DNA of 31,433 bases from a virus. The position numbers and the translations under genes were made by a program. The stretch spans positions 1-31,433 of the IMG/VR virus record IMGVR_UViG_3300002052_000024, one strand, 5' to 3'. The notes beneath the pieces are model-generated. The model was not told where the DNA came from and ran no database searches. It saw only the letters and a program-made list of their open reading frames with translations. This document shows, piece after piece, positions 12,088 through 23,142 of the stretch (position 1 is its first letter; each line of letters begins with the position of its first letter).

Positions 12088-12102
12088 AGGTAGGTGATCT
12101 CT

Positions 12103-12672
12103 ATGACAACAGACAGAGTAAGCAGAGGAAGACGAAAGTACAACATGGTATCCAGTCCAAGAGATGGTGTAGTGTTGCTAAATGCTGACTACTCATTCTT
12201 GCATGTGGTTGACTGGAAGAAAGCTGTTACTCTTATTACCAAGGGTAAAGTGGAGATCCTTAAGTTGGGTACAAGGATTGTACGAAACTTTGAAGGTACT
12301 AAGGAAATCATTGTGCCTTTGATCATGAGACTTATCAAATTGGTAAGAACCTTGTATAAAGCTAAGGTTCCTTATTCTAAGAGAAATGTGTTCATTAGAG
12401 ATGAGTTCAAATGCTGCTACTGTGGATGTGAACCTGGAAAGCTAACCATTGAACACATCGTGCCAAGAGATCAAGGTGGTAAGTCTACTTGGGAAAACAC
12501 TGTTGCTGCATGTCTACCATGCAACAACAAGAAAGAAAACAGAACTCCTTCTCAAGCAGGTATGTACTTGATAAGAAGACCTTTTGCTCCTACTATTAAT
12601 GAATTTCTACAACTACGAATGAGAAAGTGGGGAGTAAAGAGTATATTGAAAGAGTTCTTTGAATCCGTATAA
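12103..12672 (+). CDS. HNH endonuclease
   Basis: ATG 12103 follows AGGTGAT (12092-12098); a GTG at 12094 is less likely. The N-terminal region (VLLNADYSFLHVVDWKKAV, about residues 24-42) is the typical start of stand-alone bacterial HNH proteins. The HNH core runs from about 96 to 145: CCYC at 104-107 and CLPC at 137-140 bind structural zinc, EHIVP holds catalytic His118, and WEN and CNNKK supply the Asn residues. It is a DNA (or RNA) nuclease, either a free-standing homing enzyme or a phage DNA processing enzyme. It sits directly in front of the structured RNA at 12674. Unlike IscB it has no RuvC domain. Confidence 0.9.
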   Translation: MTTDRVSRGRRKYNMVSSPRDGVVLLNADYSFLHVVDWKKAVTLITKGKVEILKLGTRIVRNFEGTKEIIVPLIMRLIKLVRTLYKAKVPYSKRNVFIRDEFKCCYCGCEPGKLTIEHIVPRDQGGKSTWENTVAACLPCNNKKENRTPSQAGMYLIRRPFAPTINEFLQLRMRKWGVKSILKEFFESV

Positions 12673-12673
12673 G
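12646..12673 (+). promoter_or_regulatory. possible promoter of the structured RNA
   Basis: TTGAAA (12646-12651), a 16-base spacer and TATAAG (12668-12673) lie at the very end of the HNH gene, the -10 covering its stop codon. Initiation about seven bases downstream would be near 12680, inside the left arm of the 17-bp terminal helix, which is what an independently transcribed RNA with paired ends would need. Moderate match, so a coincidence is possible. Confidence 0.4.
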
Positions 12674-12920
12674 AGAAGATCTAGCCTAGGCAAACTTAAA
12701 CAAAAATAGTCTAGACTAGTTGCCTTACCATAGGGGAAATCGTTAGTACCTTGTGGAGAATGTTATTAATAGGAGGATGCCTATAGAATAACAAAAAGAT
12801 AGATACTAATTAAATTAAAATTGATGCTAAAATTATTAATGAAACCCAAAGCACATTAAGGTGCATGATTGGAAAGAAAGTATATCGAAGAGGTTATTAA
12901 AGTCCTAGGCTAGATCTTCT
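12674..12920 (+). ncRNA. structured non-coding RNA candidate, about 245 nt
   Basis: A stretch without a convincing gene is closed by a perfect 17-base inverted repeat: 12674-12690 pairs with 12904-12920, and a U-rich tract (12917-12928) follows. Inside, nested helices are visible: 12743-12748 with 12804-12809 (TTAGTA/TACTAA) enclosing a hairpin 12762-12792 (GTTATT/AATAAC plus ATAGG/CCTAT, loop AGGATG); a hairpin 12846-12872 (CCAA/TTGG and GCAC/GTGC); and a palindrome TAGTCTAGACTA at 12707-12718. It lies between an HNH gene and an RNA ligase gene, whose SD begins about nine bases after the repeat. I cannot match it to group I/II introns, tmRNA, 6S RNA or RNase P. A long-range mRNA leader structure is the main alternative. 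Confidence 0.7.
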
Positions 12921-12940
12921 TTTTATTTAAGGAGTGTGTT

Positions 12941-13819
12941 GTGAATAAATTCAAAAGATATAGTGACCTTGAAAACTACTGGAATCTCGAAAAAATTATG
13001 GAGAGGTACAATCCTGATTTTGATAGAGATATGCCCCATTTCTGGCACGTTACTGAAAAGATTCATGGTTCAAATGTTTGTGTTTCAAACATGTATAAAG
13101 AGGGACCAGCATTCTTTACAAGAAATGGTAATCAGCTTCCAGCAGACTACCAAGAAGTTTTAAAGAAGTATGATTGGGAATTTCTTTTTAGACTCTATCC
13201 TGGTCTCAAATTTATATATGGTGAAATTGCTGGACCTAGAATCCAAAAGGGTGTTAATTACGGAGATGAAAGAAAGCTTTATATCTTTGATTATCATGAT
13301 GGTGAAGAATATCTAAGAATACCACGACAAGAAGAAGGCTTTGATTATGTGCCTGTCTGGTACACACCTATTACCAAAATCTCATACAATGACTTTTTAA
13401 CTTGGATACTTGATAGACTTAATCATGATCCTGTCTCAGCACTTAATCCCGATAAAGGAAATGTGGTTGAAGGGTTTGTGGTAAAGTGTGTCTCAATGCC
13501 GATGCTAACTAAGGAAACACGTTTCATCTTCAAAGTTAAACATCCAAAATTCGAAGAAAGAGTTAGAGGGCCAAAGAAAGAAAAGAAGTTTGATGATATT
13601 GATTACACTATTGTTGATCAATATATCAATGAGAACAGAATAATGTCTGCTATGTCCAAATATCCTGGATTTAGGAAACACCAAATAGGTGATGTTATGA
13701 GAGAGATCGTTCAGGATGTTGAAAAAGACATGAAGAAAGATGGTTATAGATGGGATAAAAAATATGGTAAGAGGATTGCAGCATTTGCCCAAAAAACTGT
13801 TGTACAGGGAGCAGAATAA
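12941..13819 (+). CDS. T4 Rnl2-type RNA ligase, 292 aa
   Basis: A GTG start at 12941 has AAGGAG (12929-12934) six bases upstream; the first in-frame ATG would delete 18 residues. Nucleotidyltransferase motifs are in order: motif I EKIHGSN with adenylated Lys40, motif III FIYGEIAG (91-98), motif IV VEGFVVK (about 175-182) and motif V FKVKHPKF (about 202-209). This KxHGxN pattern is that of the Rnl2 family, which seals 3'-OH/5'-phosphate RNA ends using ATP. The C-terminal third is basic and probably helical, as in Rnl2. In phages such enzymes repair host-cleaved tRNAs; here the substrate might also be the adjoining structured RNA, which is speculation. The stop overlaps the next ATG. Confidence 0.9.
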   Translation: MNKFKRYSDLENYWNLEKIMERYNPDFDRDMPHFWHVTEKIHGSNVCVSNMYKEGPAFFTRNGNQLPADYQEVLKKYDWEFLFRLYPGLKFIYGEIAGPRIQKGVNYGDERKLYIFDYHDGEEYLRIPRQEEGFDYVPVWYTPITKISYNDFLTWILDRLNHDPVSALNPDKGNVVEGFVVKCVSMPMLTKETRFIFKVKHPKFEERVRGPKKEKKFDDIDYTIVDQYINENRIMSAMSKYPGFRKHQIGDVMREIVQDVEKDMKKDGYRWDKKYGKRIAAFAQKTVVQGAE

Positions 13820-21125: not shown

Positions 21126-22109
21126 ATGAGTAAATGGATTGATAAAGAATTGTTCAACAAATTTGCTGAACAAAAGACAAAAGAAGCTGAACAAGAACAG
21201 CAAAACAAAGGCAGTACCTCAAGAATGGGGAAGATTTGGCCAACACCTGAAAGAGGAAGTGTTGATAAGCCAAAGGTTTATGAAGGTAGATTCCTACCGG
21301 ACCAAAAGGGCAAATTCTATCTAAAGTATTTTTACCATATGTTCATGTCAGGAGAACAATGGCAATTTATTTTATGCCCTAAAACAGAATCAATGGATAA
21401 CTGGTGTCCATGGTGTTCTGTAACTCAGAAGCTTTTTATGGGAGGATCTGAAGATAAAAAGCAAGCACAGGTTTATAAGAGAAAAGAAAAATATGTTGGA
21501 AACTGGTTTATAGTAAAAGATCCCAGAGATGTTGAGAAAGAAGATCCAGAAGATAAAGTAGAAAATACTGTAAGGCTCTATGAATTTCCTGGTAGAGTAG
21601 AATCAAAACTTAAGCAAGAAATTACAGATACCAAGCAAGGTTATGGATATGCTATTTTTGATCCAGGTGAAGATGGGTTTAATTTCATTCTCAAAGTAAA
21701 GTCTACTAAGAAAGACAGAGAAGGTAGAACTTGGCCAGATTATAGTGATTCAATGTTCTCTAGGCAATCTGAAGCTCTTGGCAGTGACAGACAGATTCAG
21801 CAGATCTTGAAAAACTGTTATGATCTTGAAGAGTATGTTAAGGATCTAGAGAGACCTGAAGATGAAATTAAAGATCTTCTAAAGGTGGAAATGGTATGGG
21901 ATCTTGTAGAGTCTGAGTGGCAAAGAATGAAAGGTCTTCAAGAAACAAAAGAGAAAGTAGAGAGAACCAGAAAAGAAGAAAAAGAGCTTGAATTACCAAA
22001 CGATGAACCTCAAACAGAAGAGCCAAAAGAAGAAGAAGAACCAGAAGAGGTTAAAACTGTAGAAGAAGAATCAGATGAAGACTTGTTAGCAGAATTAGAA
22101 AATCTGTAA
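21126..22109 (+). CDS. ssDNA-binding protein, T4 gp32-like
   Basis: ATG 21126 follows AAGGAG (21109-21114). The 327-residue protein has the gp32 plan: a charged N-terminus (about 1-30) for cooperativity, a core with His71, Cys84, Cys94 and Cys97, whose spacing (13, 10, 3) equals that of the zinc ligands His64, Cys77, Cys87, Cys90 of T4 gp32, a KRKEKYVGNWFIVKDP segment (about 127-142) like the gp32 KRKTSYW..N..VVKDP stretch, and a long acidic tail (about 275-327). It coats single-stranded DNA during phage replication, recombination and repair; the acidic tail recruits partner proteins. It is the first gene of a strong promoter. Confidence 0.9.
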   Translation: MSKWIDKELFNKFAEQKTKEAEQEQQNKGSTSRMGKIWPTPERGSVDKPKVYEGRFLPDQKGKFYLKYFYHMFMSGEQWQFILCPKTESMDNWCPWCSVTQKLFMGGSEDKKQAQVYKRKEKYVGNWFIVKDPRDVEKEDPEDKVENTVRLYEFPGRVESKLKQEITDTKQGYGYAIFDPGEDGFNFILKVKSTKKDREGRTWPDYSDSMFSRQSEALGSDRQIQQILKNCYDLEEYVKDLERPEDEIKDLLKVEMVWDLVESEWQRMKGLQETKEKVERTRKEEKELELPNDEPQTEEPKEEEEPEEVKTVEEESDEDLLAELENL

Positions 22110-22150
22110 TCATCTGTGACCAGTATAACTTGGTTCCATCAAAAAATGTG

Positions 22151-22189
22151 CAAGGGGAGGTATCCCCTCCCCTTGACAACCTCTTTTTT
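22151..22189 (+). terminator. GC-rich hairpin with displaced T tract
   Basis: CAAGGGGAGG (22151-22160) pairs perfectly with CCTCCCCTTG (22166-22175) around a TATCC loop. The T tract (22184-22189) begins eight bases after the stem, which is far for a classical intrinsic terminator. It may attenuate, protect the ssb mRNA 3' end, or isolate the downstream leader. Confidence 0.55.
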
Positions 22190-22222
22190 ATGATTATCTT
22201 TTTTGAAAAAAGATAAGGAGGT
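22179..22222 (+). promoter_or_regulatory. putative RNA thermometer in the hsp20 leader
   Basis: A perfect A/U-only-rich 11-bp stem (22194-22204 with 22206-22216) ends exactly where the Shine-Dalgarno GGAGG begins. ACCTCT at 22179-22184 can pair with GGAGGT at 22217-22222 (one G-U pair), covering the whole SD. This weak, stacked structure directly upstream of a small heat-shock gene is what ROSE or fourU type thermometers look like. Temperature control is inference. Confidence 0.5.
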
Positions 22223-22229
22223 ATTCGAA

Positions 22230-22598
22230 ATGTTGCCAGTAAGAAGAGGAAGAGGATGGAATAGTTTTTTCAAAGAGTTTGATGAACTAGCTTCAGCATT
22301 CAGTGAGGTCTTTGATGATACTGTTTGTTATTCAGTGGGAGAAGACAGAGTGTTTGAGTTAGAGGTTCCAGGTTTTAATGAAACTAATATTAATGTTGAG
22401 TTATCAAACGGTATACTCACCATTAAAGGAACTAGAGAAGTAAAGGAAGGTTGTTATGCTGGACGTAAAGAGATCTACAAAAGATATACAGTTGGTTCTC
22501 ATGAAGAGGTTGATGCAAGTATCAAAGATGGTATTTTAAGATTAACTCTTAAAACTCCCAAAGAAGATGTGAAGAAAATAGAGCTTAAATCAAATTAA
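22230..22598 (+). CDS. small heat-shock protein, Hsp20/alpha-crystallin
   Basis: ATG 22230 is correct because AAGGAGG at 22215-22221 precedes it; the frame extends upstream to 22203 only through this site. The 122-residue protein has a short N-terminus (RRGRGWNSFFKEFDELASAF), then the alpha-crystallin domain: FELEVPGFNETNINVEL, NGILTIKGTRE, KRYTVGSHEEVDASIKDGIL and RLTLKTPK. The A-x-x-x-(N/D)G-(V/I)-L signature appears as ASIKDGIL. It is an ATP-independent holdase that keeps unfolding proteins soluble. Several phages carry hsp20 genes, usually with structural or replication neighbours. A leader that may respond to temperature precedes it and a strong terminator follows. Confidence 0.92.
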   Translation: MLPVRRGRGWNSFFKEFDELASAFSEVFDDTVCYSVGEDRVFELEVPGFNETNINVELSNGILTIKGTREVKEGCYAGRKEIYKRYTVGSHEEVDASIKDGILRLTLKTPKEDVKKIELKSN

Positions 22599-22617
22599 TT
22601 TCATTTTGTTCTCTTTT

Positions 22618-22679
22618 AAAAGACCTTCATTCTTATAAATATCTTATAGATATATAAATAAGAGTGTAAGGTCTTTTTT
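22618..22679 (+). terminator. long intrinsic terminator
   Basis: AAAAGACCTT (22618-22627) pairs with AAGGTCTTTT (22668-22677), CATTCTTAT (22628-22636) pairs with ATAAGAGTG (22658-22666) with one G-U pair and a one-base bulge at 22667, and a small ATATC/GATAT hairpin caps the stem. A T tract (22674-22679) follows. It ends the ssb-hsp20 transcript. The run of A at the 5' foot could make it bidirectional. Confidence 0.85.
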
Positions 22680-22699
22680 GCTATGGGAGAAATAAGAAC

Positions 22700-22972
22700 A
22701 TGAAGCTCAAAAAATATCTAGAGGAAAAGGTTACATTTAAAGGAAAAGATATAGGATGGGGAGCATACCCCAAAGGATGGGATAGAGGATCAGTACAGAA
22801 ATTTGCAAAATCCCTTACAAAGGAAACTGGTAAATCTCCTGATGATAAGGGATGGTTCGATGCTTGTGTTAAAAAGATTAAAGGTAAGCTAAGTGATCCA
22901 GAAGCTTTTTGTGCATCTGTAAGAGATGAAGCAAAGGGAACTACAATGTGGAGAGGTAAACATAAAAAATGA
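22700..22972 (+). CDS. hypothetical phage protein, 90 aa
   Basis: ATG 22700 follows GGGAGAAA. The protein is basic with a pattern I have seen in phage proteins: WGAYPKGWDRGSVQKFAKSL, DDKGWFDACVKKIKGKLSDP, EAFCASVRDEAKGTTMWRGK. The last motif (FCAS..D...GTT.WRGK) is typical of small phage or plasmid proteins, sometimes found at the end of larger structural proteins, but I cannot give it a function. Confidence 0.7.
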   Translation: MKLKKYLEEKVTFKGKDIGWGAYPKGWDRGSVQKFAKSLTKETGKSPDDKGWFDACVKKIKGKLSDPEAFCASVRDEAKGTTMWRGKHKK

Positions 22973-23142
22973 ATCTTCCTCAACATAATCCAAATGATCC
23001 GTATCAAAGATTTGCAGTGGCTTGTCCTAACTGTAAGAAAGTAATTCATGTTGCATCTCCAGGCTATTCTGGAGTGTCTTTCTTTTGTCCTATGTGTGGT
23101 CATGATTGGGAGGAAAGGGAAGATGAAGATGATGATGATTAA
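22969..23142 (+). CDS. small zinc-ribbon protein, 57 aa
   Basis: ATGA overlap with the preceding gene. The protein has CPNC (about 19-22) and CPMC (about 40-43), a zinc ribbon, followed by an acidic tail ending EREDEDDDD. The acidic tail resembles a protein-interaction or DNA-mimic end. No SD is needed if translation is coupled. The function is unknown. Confidence 0.7.
   Translation: MNLPQHNPNDPYQRFAVACPNCKKVIHVASPGYSGVSFFCPMCGHDWEEREDEDDDD

Follow-up and report, generated by a model that had tools for sequence, protein, structure and literature searches.

Genes and features at the locus

The window analysed here is the whole 31,433-nt stretch of the phage record IMGVR_UViG_3300002052_000024. 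Within it, the 247 nucleotides from 12674 to 12920 (+ strand) are intergenic and are located between the stop codon of an HNH endonuclease gene (12672) and the start of an Rnl2-type RNA ligase gene (12941). No open reading frame of at least 60 amino acids was found in these residues, in line with the preliminary description, which had called the stretch gene-free. Small open reading frames inside the element (MIGKKVYRRGY, for example) were dropped because their position is not kept in a distant homologue. The features of the locus are given below, where G001 and G017 are the contigs of a close and a distant relative respectively.

12094-12672, + strand: HNH endonuclease gene, 192 aa (Pfam HNH/HNH_5; sub-cutoff NCBIfam IscB/Cas9d matches; AlphaFold model and PDB comparison)
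12674-12690, + strand: 5' arm of the closing helix (17-bp match; four double compensatory changes and one wobble in the outer seven pairs in G017)
12691-12697, + strand: unpaired CAA bulge, then ACU(U) pairing with (A)AGU at 12900-12903 (the same in the three homologues save for the last U)
12726-12730, + strand: site of an extra 51-nt hairpin in G001, CCCCAAAG...CUUUGGGG (comparison with G001)
12728-12756, + strand: hairpin H2, 12728-12735/12749-12756 (from the fold only; window and G001, not G017)
12762-12792, + strand: hairpin H3, 12762-12767/12787-12792 and 12769-12773/12780-12784 (from the fold only; not in G017)
12846-12872, + strand: hairpin H4, GCAC 12851-12854/GUGC 12861-12864 with outer CCAA/UUGG (one double compensatory change)
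12904-12920, + strand: 3' arm of the closing helix (17-bp match; covariation in G017)
12941-13819, + strand: Rnl2-type RNA ligase gene (Pfam RNA_ligase, PF09414, and T4_Rnl2_C, PF18043; PHROG 548)

The ligase carries the adenylyltransferase lysine motif EKIHG (K40) and the Rnl2 C-terminal domain, and its score falls below the TIGR02307 equivalog cut-off. A Shine-Dalgarno-like AGGAG (12930-12934) precedes the ligase gene, and the gap between the HNH stop codon and this motif is mostly occupied by the element.

Elsewhere in the window, low folding z-scores at 22100-23140 were found to arise from terminators and ordinary genes. Strong terminator-like hairpins at about 22150-22190 and 22620-22680 flank a small open reading frame (22203-22598) which resembles, by eye, an Hsp20-type small heat-shock protein. 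At 22700-22972 and at L068:1967-2278 a small conserved protein was noticed that ends in ...DEAxGxTxWRGKxKK and has a counterpart in G002, a 223-kb phage (identity 44.6% across 74 residues).

Closing helix and fold

Over 17 nt the two ends of the element, AGAAGATCTAGCCTAGG (12674-12690) and CCTAGGCTAGATCTTCT (12904-12920), form an exact complementary match, as first described. In the whole window no other perfect inverted repeat with a spacing of 60-500 nt is as long, and the best one observed among 100 dinucleotide shuffles of the whole window at that spacing was 15, so that none reached 17. The RNA from 12674 to 12920 folds at -64.8 kcal/mol (z = -5.6) and none of 200 shuffles was equally good. 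Without the closing helix, the interior folds just slightly better than shuffled sequences (z = -1.7), so most of the fold signal comes from that helix. A 70% direct repeat was also seen between 12640-12666 and 12879-12905, by which the end of the HNH gene is repeated just before the 3' arm; we regard it as probably due to chance, though it may be what is left of a gene end that was duplicated.

Relatives of the element

The contig G001 (IMGVR_UViG_3300010412_000039, IMG/VR) has flanking genes near-identical to those of the window, and its element has identical arms together with an extra hairpin of 51 nt, which is complete. At the 5' end of this contig (L153:325-1568), ahead of the part that corresponds to the start of the window, four tRNA genes were observed (Ile-tat, Leu-caa, Ser-gga and Thr-tgt). 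The contig G017 (IMGVR_UViG_3300010430_000176) was reached by a search with the ribonucleotide reductase gene. It keeps the gene order of the window, with identities of 65% for the HNH protein and 74% for the RNA ligase, and its element, TTGATGTCTAGCCTAGGCAAACT...AAAAGTCCTAGGCTAGATATCAA, is 158 nt long (L180:1553-1710, - strand) and located directly 3' of the HNH gene. The family so far therefore consists of three phage contigs from two diverged lineages and, as the window and G001 are nearly identical, these three sequences amount to about one independent comparison.

Searches of other loci with nhmmer, BLAST and covariance models returned only these two relatives, the remaining matches being weak (14-20 bits), and a DNA search of annotated phage records gave either no match or weak pieces at chance level. 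A 14-mer of the arm was found in 14 stretches of viral contigs, with both arms in G001 only, while five matches to the 17-mer in genome contigs all come without a second arm and are regarded as chance. No further copy of the element was found in the window or in the G001 and G017 contigs.

Conserved core and compensatory changes

Our alignment shows that the closing helix of G017 is again 17 bp long. In the outer seven pairs, four are changed on both sides, one is a G-U and two are unchanged, whereas the inner ten pairs (CUAGCCUAGG/CCUAGGCUAG) and the flanking CAAACU/AAAGU are identical between the lineages. Two blocks of about 17 nt are thus identical across lineages whose flanking genes are 70-74% identical at the DNA level. 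A fifth double change was observed in H4, where GCAC/GUGC becomes GCAU/AUGC and remains paired. Over the 28 pairs counted in the closing helix and H4, with these 5 double changes, 98.8% of the cells are paired, compared with 19-44% when the partner is slid by 1-3 columns, and the covariation score was matched by 1 of 500 shuffles. The probability of the outer seven pairs staying paired by chance is about 0.005, with the caveat that double changes could be mimicked if one arm were repaired by template switching onto its partner. For the closing helix this test is independent, because its pairs had been drawn on the window sequence when G017 was not yet known; H4 was likewise in the preliminary list drawn from the window. 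That description had named arms which differ without compensation as grounds for giving up the structure, and the arms of G017 do differ from those of the window but with compensatory changes.

The G-U pairs, which are found in the closing helix of G017 and in the outer helix of H4 in G001, would become C-A mismatches on the other strand and therefore favour an RNA of the + strand. The G017 element also folds better on the + strand (-41.5 kcal/mol) than on the - strand (-29.8 kcal/mol), while in the window and G001 the - strand fold is about equal to the + strand fold relative to shuffles. The sequence comparisons give good support to a structured RNA in the sense of the + strand. The identity of the inner core exceeds what pairing needs, which suggests that the invariant inner 10 bp with CAAACU/AAAGU are the putative site of a bound protein.

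The H4 hairpin is conserved including its UAAG loop end, with one unpaired cell in its outer helix in G017. Everything between CAAACU and H4 is variable, and the apical part gains or loses whole hairpins, giving element lengths of 158, 247 and 304 nt. Hairpins H2 and H3 are confined to the window and G001, and the 51-nt hairpin to G001. The three internal helices that had been drawn earlier (12743-12748/12804-12809, 12762-12792 and 12846-12872) were all recovered as complementary strings. The first of these is compatible with the sequence but crosses H2 and is missing from G017; among the drawn helices, only 12846-12872 and the closing helix are held in common with this distant homologue.

Transcription context

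Promoter-like boxes are present in the window (TTGAAA at 12646-12651 and TATAAG at 12668-12673, 16 nt apart) together with a T tract at 12920-12924, and the element had accordingly been read as an independently transcribed RNA. The boxes and the tract are there in the window sequence, but both are missing in G017, and independent transcription from a promoter and to a terminator of its own is not supported. In G017, the 5' arm includes the stop codon of the HNH gene, and the ribosome site of the next gene is a few bases 3' of the 3' arm. Because G017 has neither the boxes nor the U tract, and because the element begins at the HNH stop codon and extends almost as far as the ribosome-binding site that follows, it is best read from sequence as part of an operon transcript.

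The position between an HNH gene and an RNA ligase gene is true of the window, but the link to the ligase is weaker than that to the HNH gene. A cysteine-rich open reading frame of 106 aa (L180:1218-1538, - strand), for which no NCBIfam match was found, separates the element from the ligase in G017, while the HNH gene stays adjacent and is therefore the constant neighbour.

The neighbouring HNH protein

The HNH protein is predicted to have a PLMP-type domain at residues 24-84 and a Cas9d/IscB-like HNH domain at residues 85-166, and no RuvC domain was found in its 192 residues by Pfam, in the AlphaFold model or by PDB comparison. The model (pLDDT 89) has an N-terminal domain with the order beta-beta-alpha-beta-beta, and its residues 24-84/90 superpose on residues 1-52 (PLMP) of several IscBs with an rmsd of 1.3-1.9 over 46-51 residues. 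As an example, the HfmIscB PLMP gave Z 6.9 (rmsd 1.5, 51 aligned) and the TbaIscB PLMP gave Z 6.8 (rmsd 1.3, 46 aligned), values of 6-7 being middling in general, although in several IscBs it is the PLMP end in particular that is matched. The sequence consensus also aligned with a published PLMP seed, weakly but in register (E 0.0045, probability 8%). For the HNH domain, Z was 9-10 against Cas9d-like chains, with Cas9d-type Cas9 and IscB being closest, and the metal and catalytic residues C107, C110, H121, N135, C140, C143 and N144 are conserved. In VIA-align, the model matched IscB N-termini and Cas9/IscB HNH domains, and no single alignment covered both well. The protein thus models as having a PLMP-HNH, or "IshB-like", make-up, as we take a PLMP plus an HNH domain to be the make-up of IshB. 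Altae-Tran et al. 2021, as cited in PMC12477157, suggested that the HNH domain of IscB might have come from IshB, an HNH protein without RuvC.

In other phages, 29 of 78 loci with a homologue of this gene have a tRNA or tmRNA gene no more than 150 nt away from it, about fourfold the 7.1 expected from random placement in the same loci, although the loci are non-independent. A tmRNA before the HNH gene was seen, for example, at L070:3455-3856 (loci L068-L146). The adjacency might reflect homing into RNA gene arrays or a role related to RNA. A model search of 79 PLMP-HNH loci of other phages found no homologous RNA, and no comparable long inverted repeat was found there.

Interpretation of the element

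We consider the element to be an intercistronic phage RNA module with a long closing helix and a protein-binding core, carried in the operon RNA and perhaps excised from it, and we give this reading a probability of about one half. The element would be co-transcribed with the preceding PLMP-HNH gene, and would then remain either as an RNA cut from the transcript or as a folded part of the mRNA. The closing helix may protect the RNA ends, and the invariant core would be the binding site of a protein, for which the candidates are the PLMP-HNH protein itself or an RNA-binding or processing protein of host or phage.

A role in cis only, where the element is a barrier or stabiliser between the HNH gene and the downstream genes and gives no separate RNA product, is possible but on the whole less than likely. 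Such an element could guard the HNH message at its 3' end, or bring the stop codon into the vicinity of the ribosome site that follows. In both lineages it takes up almost all of the room between stop codon and Shine-Dalgarno sequence, the downstream gene differs between them, and ribosomes finishing the HNH gene would sit on the 5' arm, in which the outer pairs can change freely. For a plain barrier, however, there is no need of an invariant 10-bp core with CAAACU/AAAGU, or of a large interior that varies (the whole element measuring 158-304 nt). It is unlikely that the PLMP-HNH protein binds the element RNA in the way that IscB and IsrB, using PLMP among other parts, bind their omega RNA, with the RNA licensing, guiding or restraining the nuclease or the nuclease regulating its own message. 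The RNA does directly follow the HNH gene in all three contigs, including G017 where the ligase is separated, the predicted domains fit the IscB PLMP and the Cas9d/IscB HNH, and the IsrB PLMP domain is in contact with hairpins close to the 3' end of the IsrB RNA (PMC9581776). Adjacency in three related phages is nevertheless weak linkage, the 79 loci of other phages have neither the RNA nor comparable paired ends, and a RuvC domain, a HEARO/omega match and a recognised guide are all missing.

An element acting at the DNA level, either a small mobile element, non-autonomous and bounded by terminal inverted repeats, or two operators in inverted orientation, would account for a perfect 17-bp inverted repeat with a variable interior beside an endonuclease gene. 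We hold this to be very unlikely, since terminal repeats keep conserved tips whereas the outer ends here differ and yet stay complementary, the G-U pairs suit the RNA of one strand only, and each of the three contigs has a single copy. A structured RNA with paired ends next to an HNH gene also recalls a degenerate intron, or the remnant of a self-cleaving ribozyme, with the HNH gene as its homing endonuclease. This is scarcely credible, as the element is not within a gene, is only 158 nt long in G017 and has no group I, group II, hammerhead or other Rfam match at E up to 10.

The element is a further structured RNA from phages, outside Rfam and bearing compensatory changes, and its lineage has been seen only in metagenomes. 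Its neighbour has a make-up discussed as an ancestor of the IscB/Cas9 HNH, and the pair allows a direct test of RNA binding by a RuvC-less protein. A further OMEGA-like partnership, in which this RuvC-less IscB relative and a dedicated phage RNA form a ribonucleoprotein, is improbable; if true, it would be an extant model of the HNH donor from which IscB and Cas9 arose.

Comparison with known RNA classes and systems

No Rfam family was found in the whole window at gathering scores, in agreement with the preliminary description, which had recognised no known class. Relaxing the threshold to E up to 10 for the element and its G001 homologue gave no sensible match, the few listed being unrelated and mostly outside the element, and ARAGORN found no tRNA or tmRNA. 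Group I and group II introns, tmRNA, tRNA, 6S, RNase P and hammerhead all gave no match in these searches. Strings resembling hammerhead, tmRNA and CsrA sites had been spotted by eye and were dropped, as they were without Rfam support or not conserved. HEARO/omega RNA was rejected because its Rfam covariance model gave no match, at the gathering score or up to E 10, and the partner has no RuvC.

The omega RNAs of IscB and IsrB (OMEGA) are comparable in being structured RNAs of about 200-300 nt beside a gene for a PLMP and a Cas9d/IscB-like HNH. Here, in contrast, the RNA is 3' of the gene, no guide segment was recognised in it, and the HNH homologues elsewhere come without it. IshB is alike in predicted domain order and small size, the assignment being by make-up and not against the published IshB set, and an RNA associated with IshB was not found reported in the literature examined. 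A long closing stem, a conserved core and a variable interior are also features of Y RNAs, which are alike by analogy only: the element has no Rfam match to them and no Ro gene was recognised among the window proteins examined.

A literature search for phage RNAs at HNH/RNA-ligase junctions returned nothing. Structured noncoding RNAs of phages, GOLLD among them, have been found by comparative genomics. The element shares with the GOLLD-type RNAs its phage origin, an obscure mechanism and compensatory changes, but it is much smaller, lies between cistrons after an HNH gene, has another sequence and fold and is represented by three contigs. It fits no known, named RNA family, while its kind, a structured phage RNA of obscure role, has precedent.
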